Shown one piece after another: positions 3,258-23,200 of a stretch of 64,000 nucleotides of DNA. Under the pieces are notes generated by a model. That model was not told the DNA's origin, did not search any database, and was given only the letters and a program-made list of their open reading frames with translations. Source of the stretch: Mesorhizobium zhangyense (GTDB lineage: Bacteria; Pseudomonadota; Alphaproteobacteria; Rhizobiales; Rhizobiaceae); NCBI RefSeq assembly GCF_011045115.1, contig NZ_JAAKZG010000002.1:248001-312000 (forward strand). Direction: 5' to 3'. How positions within the stretch are numbered: the stretch's first letter is position 1; each line of letters begins with the position of its first letter. The translations under genes were made by a program, and so were the position numbers.

Positions 3258-4109
3258 CTACTTCCCGGTTCCGGTCTTGCGCGCCGCATCGCCCGCTTCG
3301 GAGCGTTGACGCAGTCTCAGTTTCGACACGCGTTGCCAGTCGCCGGTGCGTTCAGCTTCCGTCATCGCGCGTTCGACATAGGTTATGTGATCCATCGCCG
3401 CCTTGCGCGCTGCGGCCGGCTCGCCGCCCGCCACCGCCGCGTGGATGGCGCGGTGCTGGGCAAGCAGCTCGTCGCGCGCGCCGGGCAGGGCATAGACCAG
3501 AAGCCGGCTCTGGAACACGCCGTCCGACAGCAGCCGGTAGCACGAGCGCAGCGTATGCAGGAGAATGATGTTGTGCGCGCACTCACCCACCGCATGATGA
3601 AACTCGACGTCGATCTCCGCCTCTTCCTCGAAGTCGACGCGCTCATGTACCGCTTCCATGCGCTGCATGATGCGCTCCAGCAGCGCTCGGTCGTCGGCGG
3701 TGGCGCGGCGCGCGGCGTATTCCGCCGCCACGCCCTCGATCTCGCGGCGATATTCGAGATAGTCGGAGGCCGCCTTGCTGTGCGTGCCGATCAGGTCGAG
3801 CATCGGCTTGGTGAAGACCTGGCCGATGACGTCGGCAACGTAAGTGCCGCCGCCGTGGCGCGTCACCAGCAGCCCGCGCGTTTCCAGGGCCTTCAGCGCA
3901 TCGCGCAGGATCGGCCGCGACACGTCGAACTGGCGCGCCAGCTCGCGCTCGCCGGGCAGCCGGTCGGAAACGCGCAGCACACCCTCGAGGATGAGGCTCT
4001 CGATCTGCTGCACCACCTCGTCGGCGGTGCGCGAATGCTCGATCCTGGAAAAAATCTCGCTCAAGCGAAGTGTCCGGTGAGGCCGATAATCTGTCGAGAA
4101 TAACGGCAT
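3258..4109 (-). CDS. GntR/FadR-family transcriptional regulator (LldR-like)
   Basis: A 283-residue regulator with an N-terminal winged helix (QIESLILEGVLRVSDRLPGE, then DVSRPILRDALKALETRGL). The C-terminal all-helical FCD domain carries the D, H, H metal-ligand pattern around VEFHHAVGEC. FadR-type proteins of this kind bind short-chain hydroxyacids and repress oxidation genes such as lldD. The gene is upstream of lldD on the minus strand and diverges from glcD. The shared 132-base region holds two perfect palindromes that are good operator candidates. It probably controls both arms, but that is inferred from position only. Confidence 0.85.
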   Translation of the reverse strand: MPLFSTDYRPHRTLRLSEIFSRIEHSRTADEVVQQIESLILEGVLRVSDRLPGERELARQFDVSRPILRDALKALETRGLLVTRHGGGTYVADVIGQVFTKPMLDLIGTHSKAASDYLEYRREIEGVAAEYAARRATADDRALLERIMQRMEAVHERVDFEEEAEIDVEFHHAVGECAHNIILLHTLRSCYRLLSDGVFQSRLLVYALPGARDELLAQHRAIHAAVAGGEPAAARKAAMDHITYVERAMTEAERTGDWQRVSKLRLRQRSEAGDAARKTGTGK

Positions 4110-4241: not shown

Positions 4242-5738
4242 ATGTCCGGTCTGGTCATGCCGGCCCCCGATCAATCGACGCTATCGCGTCGCGCCGAGAT
4301 CGTCGCCGATATGCGTATCATCGTGCCGGGCGAGGGAGTTGTCGATGCCGTCAACGAAATGCGCGCCTTCGAAAGCGACGGGCTCACCGCCTATCGCCAG
4401 CTTCCGCTGGTGGTCGTGCTGCCCGAAACGGTGGCACAGGTTTCCCGCATCCTGAAATATTGCGACGACCGCAAAATCCGCGTCGTGCCGCGCGGCTCGG
4501 GCACCTCGCTGTCAGGCGGCGCGCTGCCGCTGGAAGACGCGGTGCTGCTGGTCATGAGCCGCTTCAACCGCATTCTCGAGATCGACTATCCCAACCGCAC
4601 CGTCATCGCGCAGCCGGGCGTTACCAATCTCGGCATCACCACCGCCGTCGAGCAGGAGGGCTTTTACTATGCCCCCGATCCATCCTCCCAGATCGCCTGC
4701 TCGATCGGCGGCAATGTCGCGGAAAACTCCGGCGGCGTGCACAGCCTGAAATACGGCCTGACCGCCAACAATGTGCTCGGCATCGAAATGGTGCTGATGA
4801 ACGGCGAGGTCATCCGACTCGGCGGCAAGCATCTGGACAGCGAGGGTTACGACCTGCTCGGCGTCATGACCGGCTCGGAAGGACTTCTGGGCGTCGTCAC
4901 CGAGGTCACCGTGCGCATATTGCGCAAGCCCGAGACGGCGCGCGCGCTGCTCATCGGCTTTCCGACCAGCGAGCAGGGCGGCCAGTGCGTGGCTGACATC
5001 ATCGGCGCCGGCATCATTCCCGGTGGCATGGAGATGATGGATCGCCCGGCAATCCACGCGGCCGAGGATTTCGTCCATGCCGGCTATCCCCGTGAATGCG
5101 AGGCGCTGCTGATCGTCGAACTCGACGGGCCGGGCGTCGAGGTCGATCATCTCATCGGCCGGGTCGAGGCCATCGCCTTGAAGAACGGCTCCACCACCTG
5201 CCGCATCTCGCAATCCGAGCAGGAACGCATGACTTTCTGGGCCGGGCGCAAGGCGGCATTCCCGGCGGTCGGCCGCATATCGCCGGATTACTACTGCATG
5301 GACGGCACCATCCCGCGCAAGGAACTGCCGCGGGTGCTCGCCGGCATGCGCGAGCTGTCCGAGCAATATGGCCTCGGCGTTGCCAATGTCTTCCACGCCG
5401 GCGACGGCAATCTCCACCCGCTCATCCTTTACGACGCCAACATCCCCGGCGAACTCGACAAGGCCGAAAACTTCGGCGCCGATATTTTACGCCTCTGCGT
5501 CAAGGTCGGCGGAGTGTTGACGGGCGAACACGGCGTCGGCGTCGAAAAGCGCGACCTGATGCCGGAGATGTTCAACCAGATCGACCTCGACCAGCAAATG
5601 CGTGTCAAATGCGCCTTCGACCCCAACCATTTGCTCAATCCCGGCAAGGTGTTCCCCCAGCTCCGCCGCTGCGCCGAACTCGGCCGAATGCACATCTCCG
5701 GCGGCAAGCTGCCGTTCCCGGACATTCCGAGGTTTTGA
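4242..5738 (+). CDS. glcD: Glycolate oxidase FAD-binding subunit GlcD
   Basis: A 498-residue FAD-linked oxidase of full family length. The N-terminal PCMH-type FAD domain shows PRGSGTSLSGGALP and the IGGNVAENSGGVHSLKYG block that binds the FAD pyrophosphate. The C-terminal domain has the metal and substrate residues in VFHAGDGNLHPLI and GGVLTGEHGVGVEKR. GlcD oxidises glycolate (or D-lactate) and hands electrons to the iron-sulfur subunit GlcF in a membrane-associated GlcDEF complex. A GAGGAG ribosome binding site precedes the ATG. GlcE and GlcF are encoded downstream, but a DUF559 nuclease gene with palindromic repeats intervenes. Confidence 0.93.
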   Translation: MSGLVMPAPDQSTLSRRAEIVADMRIIVPGEGVVDAVNEMRAFESDGLTAYRQLPLVVVLPETVAQVSRILKYCDDRKIRVVPRGSGTSLSGGALPLEDAVLLVMSRFNRILEIDYPNRTVIAQPGVTNLGITTAVEQEGFYYAPDPSSQIACSIGGNVAENSGGVHSLKYGLTANNVLGIEMVLMNGEVIRLGGKHLDSEGYDLLGVMTGSEGLLGVVTEVTVRILRKPETARALLIGFPTSEQGGQCVADIIGAGIIPGGMEMMDRPAIHAAEDFVHAGYPRECEALLIVELDGPGVEVDHLIGRVEAIALKNGSTTCRISQSEQERMTFWAGRKAAFPAVGRISPDYYCMDGTIPRKELPRVLAGMRELSEQYGLGVANVFHAGDGNLHPLILYDANIPGELDKAENFGADILRLCVKVGGVLTGEHGVGVEKRDLMPEMFNQIDLDQQMRVKCAFDPNHLLNPGKVFPQLRRCAELGRMHISGGKLPFPDIPRF

Positions 5739-6256
5739 TGGGGACCTTTCAGAACGAGGGTTCCTCGCCCCCGCCTTGCGGGGGAGAGGTGGCTCGGGCG
5801 AAGCCCGAGACGGAGAGGGGGGTGACCGCCCCGTCTAGCAGGCGCTCACCACAGAAGATCGAGCGAGCCCGACAACTCCGCCATAGCGACAACCTTGCAG
5901 AAGCAACGCTTTGGAATGAACTGAAGGCCAAAAAGCTGGGCGGCTACAAATTCGTTCGTCAGATGCCATTAGGGCCGTATTTTGCGGACTTTGCATGCCG
6001 AAGCGCGAAGCTGGTTGTTGAGCTGGACGGAAGCCAGCATGTGGAAAGTTCCTACGACAGACGCCGGGACGAATTCATGCGAGCCCAGGGCTATTCGGTC
6101 ATTCGTTTTTGGAGTGCTGATGCGGTGAAAAATTTGGCGAGCGTTTGTGAGACCATTCTCGCGGCGTTGAATGGCCGTTTGAGCGAAGAGGTGGTTAGCT
6201 CGGATTTGCGGTTCGTTTTTGCGGGGACCAAGAAGGCAGGGGACGGTTCTCTATGA
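5738..6256 (+). CDS. DUF559 (Vsr-like) endonuclease-domain protein
   Basis: The core, about residues 43-160, matches the DUF559 family: LAEATLWNELKAKKLGGYKF, then FADFACRSAKLVVELDGSQH. Asp84, Glu95, Asp97 and His101 fit the Vsr/PD-(D/E)XK-like nuclease centre. The ATG at 5738 overlaps the glcD stop codon, but the first 28 residues are then translated from a palindromic repeat. An in-frame GTG at 5822, just after the repeat's GGAGAGGGGG end, is an alternative start giving 144 residues. The gene lies between inverted copies of the same repeat and splits the glc operon, which suggests recent insertion as a unit. The biological role of free-standing DUF559 proteins is not established to my knowledge. 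Confidence 0.8.
   Translation: MGTFQNEGSSPPPCGGEVARAKPETERGVTAPSSRRSPQKIERARQLRHSDNLAEATLWNELKAKKLGGYKFVRQMPLGPYFADFACRSAKLVVELDGSQHVESSYDRRRDEFMRAQGYSVIRFWSADAVKNLASVCETILAALNGRLSEEVVSSDLRFVFAGTKKAGDGSL
5759..5825 (+). repeat. Two-hairpin palindromic repeat, copy 1
   Basis: A REP-like element of two hairpins: CCCCCGCCTTGCGGGGG, then GGTGG, then CTCGGGCGAAGCCCGAG, ending ACGGAGAGGGGG. It is nearly identical to the copies at 6256-6319 (inverted) and 6353-6417 (direct). It overlaps the 5' part of the DUF559 reading frame. Confidence 0.85.
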
Positions 6257-6319
6257 TCGCCCCCTCTCCGTCTCGCTACGCTCGACACCTCTCCCCCGCT
6301 TTGCGGGGGCGAGGAACCC
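6256..6319 (-). repeat. Two-hairpin palindromic repeat, copy 2 (inverted)
   Basis: Reverse-complement copy of the element at 5759, starting immediately after the DUF559 stop codon. Together with copy 1 it encloses the nuclease gene as an inverted pair. Its second hairpin (TCGAGCGTAGCGAGA) differs from copy 1 in sequence but keeps its pairing. Confidence 0.85.
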
Positions 6320-6352
6320 AAGTTCTGCTATGTCGCCACCTCGGCGAGTGCC

Positions 6353-6417
6353 GGTTCCTCGCCCCCATGAAATGGGGGAGAGGTGGCTCGGGCGAAGCCC
6401 GAGACGGAGAGGGGGCC
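6353..6417 (+). repeat. Two-hairpin palindromic repeat, copy 3
   Basis: Direct copy of the element at 5759, with loop ATGAAA in the first hairpin. It lies 41 bases upstream of the glcE start codon and forms a head-to-head doublet with copy 2. Confidence 0.85.
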
Positions 6418-6458
6418 TTCCTTCAATCAAACGCCCTCTTCCCGGCAGCAACTCACCC

Positions 6459-7700
6459 ATGACCACCTTCACCCCCACATCCCCCACCGAAACGCTCTCC
6501 GCCGTCGAATGGGCGCTGGCCAACGAATCCCCGCTGGAAATCCTCGGCCACGGCTCCAAGCGCGGCCTGGGCCGCCCGCTGCAGACCGAACACACGCTCG
6601 ACCTGTCGCAACTCACCGGTGTCACGCTCTACGAGCCGGAAGAACTTGTGCTGTCGGCGCGGGCCGGCACGCCGCTTGCCGAGATCGAAAAGCTGCTTGC
6701 GGATCACGGCCAGGAACTTGCATTCGAGCCTATGGATTACGGCCCGCTGCTCGGAGGAGTGGCCGGGCGCGGCACCATCGGCGGCGTGCTGGCGGCCAAT
6801 CTCGCCGGCCCGCGCCGCCTAAAGGCTGGTGCTGCGCGCGACCATATCCTCGGCATCAATGCCGTCTCCGGGCGCGGCGAGGCGTTCAAGTCCGGTGGCC
6901 GCGTGGTGAAAAACGTCACCGGCTACGACCTGTCGAAAGCCATGGCCGGCTCGTGGGGCACGCTGGCCGTGCTGACCGATGTCACTTTCAAGGTTCTGCC
7001 CGCCGCCGAAACCGAAGTGACGCTCGCCATACGCGGCCTGTTCGATGAGGAAGCCGCCGCTGCGATGGCGCTGGCGCTCGGCTCGAGCGAAGAAGTTTCG
7101 AGTGCGGCGCATGTGCCGGAAAACCTTGTCGGCAGCATTGCGGGCGGCGCGCTGAAGGGCGCGTCCGCCACACTGCTGCGCGTTGAAGGTTTTGGACCTT
7201 CCGTGGCCTTCCGGACGAAGAAGCTCATCGATCTCCTGAAAAACGCCGGCCCAATCGACGAGATTTCCGGCGATGCCTCAAAGGCGCTGTGGCGCGATAT
7301 CCGCGACTGCGCACCCTTTGCCGATGGCACGGAACGGCCCGTCTGGCGCGTTTCGATGGCACCGTCGCAGGCCCATGCGATGGTCATGGCGCTGCGCATG
7401 GAAGAGGCCACCGACGCTTTCTACGACTGGCAGGGCGGCCTCGTCTGGCTGCGCATGCAGGCCGATCCCGAAGCCGACCTGCTGCGCCGGCTGGTACGAA
7501 AATTCGGTGGCGGCCACGCCACGCTGGTGCGCGCCAACCACTCGCTGCGCGCGTCGCTTGCCGTCTTCGAACCGCAACTGCCTGCCCTTGCCGGTCTCTC
7601 GGCGCGGCTGAAAGAACAGTTCGACCCGAAGGGCATTCTAAATCCGGGCCGTATGGTGCCTCTCGGCAAGTCTGCTACGCTCGCAGCGTCAAACGAGTGA
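6459..7700 (+). CDS. glcE: Glycolate oxidase FAD-binding subunit GlcE
   Basis: A 413-residue protein of usual GlcE length. It has an FAD-binding PCMH domain (LEILGHGSKRGLGRP, GGVAGRGTIGGVLAANLAGP, GGRVVKNVTGYDLSKAMAGS) and the family C-terminus FDPKGILNPGRM. GlcE is the second flavoprotein-like subunit of glycolate oxidase and is needed for activity with GlcD and GlcF. The frame is open far upstream, but that part translates the palindromic repeats. The ATG at 6459 gives the normal family start. No strong Shine-Dalgarno is visible, so translation may have depended on coupling to glcD before the insertion. Confidence 0.92.
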   Translation: MTTFTPTSPTETLSAVEWALANESPLEILGHGSKRGLGRPLQTEHTLDLSQLTGVTLYEPEELVLSARAGTPLAEIEKLLADHGQELAFEPMDYGPLLGGVAGRGTIGGVLAANLAGPRRLKAGAARDHILGINAVSGRGEAFKSGGRVVKNVTGYDLSKAMAGSWGTLAVLTDVTFKVLPAAETEVTLAIRGLFDEEAAAAMALALGSSEEVSSAAHVPENLVGSIAGGALKGASATLLRVEGFGPSVAFRTKKLIDLLKNAGPIDEISGDASKALWRDIRDCAPFADGTERPVWRVSMAPSQAHAMVMALRMEEATDAFYDWQGGLVWLRMQADPEADLLRRLVRKFGGGHATLVRANHSLRASLAVFEPQLPALAGLSARLKEQFDPKGILNPGRMVPLGKSATLAASNE

Positions 7701-23044: not shown

Positions 23045-23094
23045 GCCCCCCTCTGGCCTGCCGGCCATCTCCCCCACAGGTGGGGAGATCAGCC
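23045..23094 (-). repeat. Two-hairpin palindromic repeat, third subfamily, left copy
   Basis: CCCCCCTCTGGCCTGCCGGCC then ATCTCCCCCACAGGTGGGGAGAT: again a GC-hairpin pair with the two-part plan of the other repeats, in reverse orientation. It pairs with 23150-23200. It lies between hisS and hisZ. Confidence 0.8.
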
Positions 23095-23149
23095 GTCATT
23101 GCGACTTTCGCCAATCTTCAGCGTTGCAGAGCAGGCGAGACGAACGACA

Positions 23150-23200
23150 CCGCTAATCTCCCCACCTGTGGGGGAGATGTCCGGCAGGACAGAGGGGGGC
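23150..23200 (+). repeat. Two-hairpin palindromic repeat, third subfamily, right copy
   Basis: Inverted partner of 23045-23094: AATCTCCCCACCTGTGGGGG, AGATGTCCGGCAGGACAGAG, GGGGGC. The doublet encloses about 55 bases of unrelated sequence and lies 46 bases before the hisZ start. Confidence 0.8.

Follow-up and report, generated by a model that had tools for sequence, protein, structure and literature searches.

The DUF559 nuclease encoded beside the glycolate oxidase genes of Mesorhizobium zhangyense and the two-hairpin palindromic repeats that adjoin it are probably a working pair, since in many bacteria the type of nuclease goes with the type of repeat, and the pair may be previously undescribed. 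The explanation that we favour, and consider fairly probable, is that the DUF559 protein is a dedicated partner of its flanking repeats, in the way that RAYTs are of REPINs, with an enzyme of an unrelated class (PD-(D/E)XK, Vsr-like). Few intergenic repeats are as common in bacteria as REP elements, and to our knowledge the only enzymes tied to them are the HUH RAYTs. One large group of REPs reportedly has no enzyme of its own (PMC3733652, in the part consulted). If the explanation is true, a conserved nuclease partner gives a function to a DUF family and accounts for repeat families in genomes that lack a RAYT, and the question is open to test in laboratory strains such as E. coli K-12, which has ycjD.

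The window, that is the whole stretch of 64,000 nucleotides that was analysed, contains the nuclease gene on the forward strand at 5738-6256 (PF04480, E 1e-34; stop codon 6254-6256). Upstream on the same strand lies the open reading frame of an FAD-linked glycolate oxidase subunit (4242-5738, PF02913/PF01565), which we take to be glcD, the label used in the preliminary description, and downstream lies glcE (6459-7700, forward strand), recognised by its open reading frame and Pfam domain. The three repeat copies claimed around the gene were all found. The left copy, of family A, occupies 5759-5821 on the forward strand, with hairpin 1 at 5763-5789, hairpin 2 at 5792-5809 and a tail pointing towards the gene at 5810-5821. 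The right copy, also of family A, lies on the reverse strand at about 6260-6319, inverted relative to the left one and likewise with its tail towards the gene. The third copy, on the forward strand at about 6353-6415, has the orientation of the left copy, with which it shares 42 identical nucleotides (6374-6415 and 5780-5821), and is the dimer partner of the right copy; these two lie head to head and make up a dimer of about 155 bp (6259-6416). An Rfam scan of 5600-6600 gave only matches under the gathering score. A second repeat family (D) is present in the window as an unstranded inverted pair with 52-nt arms at 23045-23200, and this kind of repeat is also found to the left of another DUF559 gene in the same genome (locus L009).

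The nuclease likely starts at the ATG at 5738, which overlaps the glcD stop and from which the frame is open through the left repeat; the alternative is a GTG at 5822. Among the glcD-clade loci displayed, 32 of 37 have an in-frame ATG ahead of the left repeat that reads through it, in many cases sharing letters with the glcD stop (TGATG), and in this clade the left copy seems even to contribute a translated N-terminal tail to the nuclease. The preliminary description had suggested that the purine run at the end of the left repeat could be the ribosome binding site of an in-frame GTG. Such a GTG is indeed present in frame at 5822, but it is not conserved, as 38 of the 52 family-A loci having a left repeat contain no ATG, GTG or TTG after it. 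The role proposed for the tail found no support in the glcD clade; in family B the start codon lies exactly 7 nt past the repeat tail in 11 of the 35 loci having one.

Inverted repeats (IR score at least 20) closely bracketed 124 of 246 testable DUF559 genes, compared with none of 840 control genes, from which any gene overlapping a DUF559 match on either strand had been excluded. The 246 are what was left of 254 DUF559 genes after 8 had been dropped whose flanks did not reach far enough for this test, locus L019 was kept out of the set as it lies at a contig edge, and the set is not a random one, being composed of the best-scoring search places and 60 stretches out of further family places. 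Bracketed members occur in 48 of 101 clusters formed at 70% identity and, with codes and names counted separately, under 69 of 134 genus labels, spanning Alphaproteobacteria and other Pseudomonadota, and such repeats are also present at single loci of Deinococcus, Neisseria and E. coli (ycjD). A repeat-type hairpin was found within 300 bp on either side of 195 of 247 DUF559 genes; for genes in random stretches the count is 6 of 318, and for the other genes of the nuclease loci it is 31 of 333. The nearest repeat points its tail towards the gene at 189 of 220 DUF559 loci. About half of the DUF559 genes are without two-sided bracketing; some of these have a one-sided pair, as at L009, and some have no recognisable repeat. 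The enrichment of repeats near DUF559 genes that the preliminary description had proposed to look for is thus borne out by the bracketing counts.

Repeat type follows the nuclease clade and not the host. Where nucleases at least 70% identical come from different genera, 962 of 1010 pairs share the repeat type, a sharing that among orthologues is partly the inheritance of one same locus; where nucleases less than 60% identical come from the same genus, only 11 of 195 pairs do. On the nuclease tree the repeat-type label changes 25 times, whereas 100 shuffles gave 131 changes on average and never fewer than 120, so the expectation that nuclease phylogeny tracks repeat type held. These label changes, together with the control counts for bracketing and hairpin proximity, speak against chance or an annotation artefact as the source of the association; no point in favour of either was found, and we regard this possibility as practically negligible. 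At the level of whole genomes, of 21 genomes with a nuclease at least 60% identical to that of the window, 16 contain REP-A units, as do 6 of 72 other DUF559-bearing genomes (Fisher p 2.7e-9; p 0.22 for the same nucleases and REP-B), a correlation that ignores kinship and a tally that includes the copies adjoining the nuclease. The correspondence has exceptions. The strict pattern finds no REP-A unit in five of the 21 genomes whose nuclease is window-like, six genomes have 2 to 5 REP-A units and no window-like nuclease, and of 58 genomes in which DUF559 had no match, 13 contain family-B repeats, in up to 20 copies. The M. zhangyense genome (G000) itself has 16 family-B units, yet no repeat of that family lies within 450 bp of any of its three nuclease genes.

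Repeats of this kind are common and intergenic, and a RAYT or some other transposase might spread them, their build-up near a DUF559 gene with a task in defence or repair being incidental. DUF559-like domains do occur in defence proteins, the matches in defence libraries being weak and partial only. Such a bystander role is very improbable in our judgement: the Y1_Tnp profile (PF01797, HUH/RAYT-class) had no match in G000, in the sister genome (G001) or in any of 22 REP-A genomes, none of the 840 control genes was bracketed, and a repeat type that stays with its nuclease clade across genera is not what this explanation leads one to expect.

The repeats are dispersed well beyond the nuclease gene. 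A BLAST search with 5738-6437 against the genome of origin gave 89 matches, mostly to the head-to-head dimer and with dimers often counted on both strands, and the strict single-unit pattern of family A occurs 60 times in this genome. The unit that recurs across the genome is this dimer of about 155 bp: in 400 kb of G000, 18 of 25 elements are head-to-head pairs, and in G001 the same holds for 11 of 19. Between these congeneric genomes, 3 of 25 and 3 of 19 elements are present in one and clearly missing from the other, a comparison for which only orientation and presence or absence were used, family letters being unreliable (one pattern caught another family), and from which several sites without a recognised repeat were excluded, as their gaps of 215-505 bp possibly hold diverged repeats. 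No target-site duplication was seen at five aligned presence/absence sites. The second hairpin forms stems of at least 4 in 24 of 33 distinct inner sequences of family A (2 of 33 when shuffled) and in 7 of 17 of family B (0 of 17 when shuffled), so its pairing is kept though the letters change.

The nuclease gene itself is vertically inherited under strong purifying selection. In 32 named loci (35 with either gene named) from Mesorhizobium, Aminobacter, Pseudaminobacter, Aquamicrobium and others, glcD and glcE enclose the A-clade nuclease, and the median dN/dS is 0.071 for the A clade (169 pairs) and 0.059 for the B clade (15 pairs), with 0.072 for glcD. The preliminary description had set a fixed glcD-glcE order with the repeats absent against its own proposal; Mesorhizobium and its relatives do have a fixed order, yet they retain the repeats. 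The C-type nuclease lies, to judge by eye, at one shared junction of genes in both G000 and Sinorhizobium. Recent movement of the Sinorhizobium unit was also considered, but the repeats of K101, C101 and M103 did not differ when aligned.

That the nuclease and its repeats are themselves a mobile cassette, either an insertion sequence or of homing type with the repeats as its ends, is suggested by the inverted ends in Sinorhizobium meliloti Ak57, which match over 114 nt at 96% with the spacer included, by those at locus L015, which match over 51 nt with no mismatch, and by a homing endonuclease among the nearest solved structures. The fixed positions of the A clade and apparently also of the C type weigh against such a cassette; the lack of target duplications at the five aligned repeat sites and the three nucleases of the M. 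zhangyense genome, which differ from one another and include no repeated gene, may count against it too. A phage-borne homing gene is disfavoured because matches to the nuclease in phages are few (5 records) and weak. Altogether, we hold the cassette to be quite improbable.

Selection and fixed location would also fit a host-domesticated nuclease that does not mobilise anything. Such a structure-specific enzyme would police or use the repeat hairpins in repair, replication, RNA or its own regulation, the adjoining repeats would be regulatory, and the dispersal would be ancient or otherwise caused. The 7-nt spacing in family B or the open frame through the clade-A repeat fits such a role, and so do the genomes that hold repeats without the nuclease. 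The DUF559 protein VsrA of Caulobacter, which according to the part of PMC12907096 consulted acts on chromosomal DNA in vivo, is a further point in its favour. A domesticated role alone leaves unexplained, however, why each nuclease clade has its own scattered repeat family and why repeats turn over between sister species, and we consider it unlikely, though with some weight.

The partnership of nuclease and repeat that the preliminary description had likened to that of RAYT and REP is supported by the enrichment and the matching of clade and repeat type; a domesticated, vertically inherited branch of it fits, while a recently moved cassette fits less. How the dedicated partner would work can be outlined. 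The predicted nuclease would recognise the two-hairpin repeat, extruded or single-stranded, and nick the DNA at or next to it. The host's replication or repair might then occasionally place a copy of the dimer at another intergenic position. The copies adjoining the gene would be retained as putative binding or regulatory sites of the nuclease itself. PD-(D/E)XK nucleases hydrolyse DNA without rejoining it, so in contrast to RAYT chemistry the joining step must be the host's. It is in this sense that we infer mobilisation of the repeats by the nuclease. A broader claim can be put forward tentatively, at slightly less than even confidence: a superfamily of two-hairpin repeats that spans the phylum (CCCTCTCCC...GGGAGAGGG with a GAGGGG tail) would have the DUF559/YcjD nucleases as its dedicated partners, and these would spread and maintain it by nicking and host-dependent copying, a second, HUH-independent way of keeping REP populations that may operate even beside ycjD of E. 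coli K-12.

Among solved structures, Foldseek gave 3HRL as the best match to the window protein (E 4e-9) and the catalytic domain of I-Bth0305I as the second (E 5e-4), and in the VIA structural comparison I-Bth0305I reached Z 11.9 and Vsr (1cw0) Z 10.1. Five residues are invariant in 68 diverse relatives, their codons lying between 5900 and 6058 on the forward strand: E27 (5900-5902), D56 (5987-5989), D69 (6026-6028), H73 (6038-6040) and D79 (6056-6058), with numbering that starts at the GTG at 5822. They match the active-site residues that the consulted part of PMC12907096 lists for Vsr and Caulobacter VsrA. The window protein thus resembles these enzymes in fold and active-site residues but differs from them in the scattered repeat that flanks its gene and in having no match to the curated NCBIfam vsr model (TIGR00632) at E 0.1; of three relatives scanned, one matched that model at E 0.012, far below the cut-off. 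I-Bth0305I is a homing endonuclease with a Vsr-like catalytic domain, whereas the gene in the window is intergenic, vertically inherited and interrupts no other gene, glcD and glcE flanking it as open frames with their own Pfam domains.

In E. coli the intergenic repeat downstream of ycjD, itself a DUF559 gene, lies on one side of the gene only and is scattered in the species, with a median of 4 places per genome by megablast and 13 by blastn, partial matches included. It contains the 23-mer GGGGAGAGGGTTAGGGTGAGGGG, which also adjoins DUF559 genes of Rhizobium and Sinorhizobium, and it may be an element of the kind called RSA. Scattered intergenic repeats have long been known in rhizobia, including RIME, Sm and AB/C (PMC2573895, in the part consulted), and the CGTC REPs are reportedly without a dedicated transposase (PMC3733652, likewise in part). 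For RIME, Sm, AB/C and the GTAG/CGTC REPs, which can be likened to the present repeats by description only, the consulted parts of these two papers name no nuclease partner. An identification of the rhizobial repeats as CGTC REPs was considered, but the stem sizes and tails described in that part of PMC3733652 seemingly do not fit. The closest likeness in organisation is to RAYT (TnpA-REP) and REPINs, for which the consulted parts of PMC3116915 and PMC8049555 describe a single-copy, vertically inherited gene with a cognate REP and inverted doublets. The DUF559 gene is likewise single-copy and vertically inherited, is adjoined by its own type of REP and has scattered inverted doublets; it differs in that the enzyme is a Vsr-like PD-(D/E)XK nuclease and not an HUH Y1 transposase, and in that the repeats have two hairpins and a GAGGGG tail.

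Between glcD and glcE the window encodes a DUF559 protein (PF04480, E 1e-34), and its gene lies among repeats. A single two-hairpin repeat is found to the left (5759-5821) and a head-to-head pair to the right (6260-6319 and 6353-6415), with the left and right copies mutually inverted and the tails of both directed at the gene. The right-hand pair is also the unit dispersed across the Mesorhizobium zhangyense genome, which carries 60 strict single units of this repeat type (family A). Together these features confirm the preliminary description, in which the gene was enclosed by inverted two-hairpin repeats. In the AlphaFold2 model of the protein (pLDDT 84), the closest folds are NGO0050 (3HRL), the catalytic domain of the homing endonuclease I-Bth0305I, and Vsr. 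Eight columns are invariant in 68 sequences, among them E27, D56, D69, G70, H73 and D79. One paper (PMC12907096) lists E25, D51, H64, H69 and D97 for Vsr, and E73, D102, D115, H119 and D124 for VsrA, a DUF559 protein of Caulobacter; the residue spacing of the window protein matches that listed for VsrA except for one residue between H and D. The same paper describes a DUF559 protein as responsible for an in vivo SOS response when a solitary methyltransferase is absent.

Such repeats are enriched at DUF559 genes, as had been proposed. The comparison used 254 DUF559 genes, drawn from M. zhangyense itself, from samples of its genus, family, order, class and phylum, and from 80 contigs of named genomes. 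The set consists of top-scoring or selected places and is not a random sample. With flanks of 450 bp included, an inverted repeat spanning the gene scored at least 20 in 124 of the 246 testable genes and at least 16 in 139, against 0 and 1 of 840 control genes, of which 531 came from the same loci and 309 from twenty 20-kb stretches (nineteen of them in genomes sampled from the order, class and phylum, one in M. zhangyense). Bracketed genes made up 52/72 in the named loci, 36/100 in the own genome, genus and family taken together, 16/27 in the order, 12/29 in the class and 8/18 in the phylum, and 48 of 101 clusters at 70% identity had a bracketed member. About half of the DUF559 genes are without two-sided bracketing. 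Under a less strict criterion, 195/247 DUF559 genes had a repeat-type hairpin up to 300 bp away on either side, compared with 6/318 genes of random stretches and 31/333 genes elsewhere in the nuclease loci.

Nuclease phylogeny also tracks repeat type, another expectation of the preliminary description. With six types assigned by pattern (34 of the 254 genes had no assignment), the nuclease tree shows 25 changes of repeat type, while 100 shuffles gave 131 on average and never fewer than 120. Where nucleases are at least 70% identical, the type is common to 962/1010 pairs from different genera and 376/389 from the same genus; in the 60-69% range roughly four pairs in ten share it, same or different genus alike, and below 60% only 11/195 same-genus pairs do. 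Common descent of the locus accounts for part of this sharing. A test at genome level, which draws on more than this one locus, covered 151 genomes from the family: 22 carry repeat A, 21 encode a nuclease with 60% identity or more to that of the window, and 16 have both (Fisher p 8e-13; p 2.7e-9 among the 93 DUF559-bearing genomes; phylogeny ignored, and copies beside the nuclease included in the repeat counts). All six genomes with at least 10 A units have the matching nuclease. Repeats of another type found beside other DUF559 clades (family B) show no association with window-like nucleases in the 93 DUF559-bearing genomes (p 0.22).

The pairing has exceptions. Strict A units are absent from 5/21 genomes with a window-like nuclease, and six genomes have a few A units and no such nuclease. 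Family-B repeats occur in 13/58 genomes without a DUF559 match, and M. zhangyense itself carries them while lacking a nuclease of that family; such repeats could be relics, or there may be a different agent at work. Five genomes of the family (G012, G041, G113, G136 and G138) hold orphan populations of 14 to 20 family-B units each, with no DUF559 match.

Among the 80 named loci, glcD and/or glcE (at least 60% identity) are present in 35 and both in 32, in Mesorhizobium, Aminobacter, Pseudaminobacter, Aquamicrobium and others; in the remaining 45, whose nucleases are mostly less similar, the stretch retrieved contains neither gene. A fixed glcD-glcE order lacking the repeats, named beforehand as evidence against a nuclease-repeat partnership, is not what these loci present: at least one A repeat is kept between the two genes in 32/32, and, L078 and L087 excepted, A repeats flank the nuclease on both sides. 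The dN/dS of the nuclease is about 0.07, equal to that of glcD. Given the retained repeats, this placement and this selection, the window nuclease is read as vertically inherited: it is not in decay, nor is it a recent insertion at this site. In some species (L068, L071, L072, L074 and L077) an additional open frame of about 190 codons, which may encode an ASCH-type domain, separates glcD from the left repeat.

The repeats themselves turn over between M. zhangyense and a congeneric sister genome. In 400 kb of each, 18/25 and 11/19 repeat elements are head-to-head pairs, and 3/25 and 3/19 are clearly missing at the orthologous position in the other, with many more common to both and some ambiguous. 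At five aligned presence/absence sites no target-site duplication was seen, and the joints are imprecise. The letters of hairpin 2 vary while its pairing is kept, a pattern that is clear for family A and less so for family B.

The in-frame GTG start proposed after the left repeat is not conserved, as 38/52 family-A loci have no start codon there. Instead, 32/37 loci of the glcD clade have an ATG upstream of the left repeat, in frame through it. Translated in this frame (window 5738-5821), the left repeat of this clade would give the nuclease an N-terminal tail, a repeat-derived peptide (SSPPQSGGEVARAKPETERG-like). In family B, whose tail GGATGAGGGG resembles a Shine-Dalgarno sequence, the start codon lies exactly 7 nt past the repeat tail in 11 of the 35 loci that have one.

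All three DUF559 genes of M. zhangyense have such repeats nearby, each from a different repeat family. One (L011) lies between 56-nt arms (95%), and the other (L009) lies right of an inverted repeat pair. At L009 the DUF559 gene carries, at its own 3' end, a duplicate of the upstream gene's 3' end (1182-1226 and 1840-1884; 45 nt, 87%), as if the unit had arrived carrying a copy of its neighbour's end. In Sinorhizobium meliloti Ak57 (L338), inverted 114-nt arms (2855-2968 and 3431-3544, 96%) flank the gene, and each contains a whole repeat dimer including the spacer. On a Deinococcus plasmid 23-nt arms (96%) lie on both sides (a single locus), and in Neisseria gonorrhoeae (L354, 1328-2300) a DUF559 gene is found amid long direct repeats, their hairpin core being CCCTCTCCC, on both sides. 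In E. coli such a repeat, dispersed in this species, lies downstream of ycjD, in the ycjD-fabI intergenic region of K-12 MG1655 (a single locus). It is found at a median of 13 and a maximum of 24 places per genome (blastn, partial matches included), and shares an exact 23-base core with repeats beside Rhizobium DUF559 genes.

A mechanism to accompany the observed association, type pairing, selection and turnover would have the nuclease recognise the repeat hairpin and then nick; copying of the repeat would depend on the host, and the flanking copies may serve the nuclease gene's own control. Dispersed rhizobial repeats have themselves long been known (PMC2573895). Searches of open-access literature and a few subscription papers, judged from listings and text passages, turned up no paper linking DUF559, COG2852 or YcjD with REP-type repeats, which does not prove novelty. 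The organisation of the DUF559 genes and their repeats is like that described for the RAYT/REPIN systems (PMC3116915, PMC8049555). The HUH transposase that defines those systems is absent here, with no PF01797 match in M. zhangyense, the sister genome or any of the 22 genomes with repeat A. The nuclease-repeat system therefore probably works like a RAYT system but is not one.
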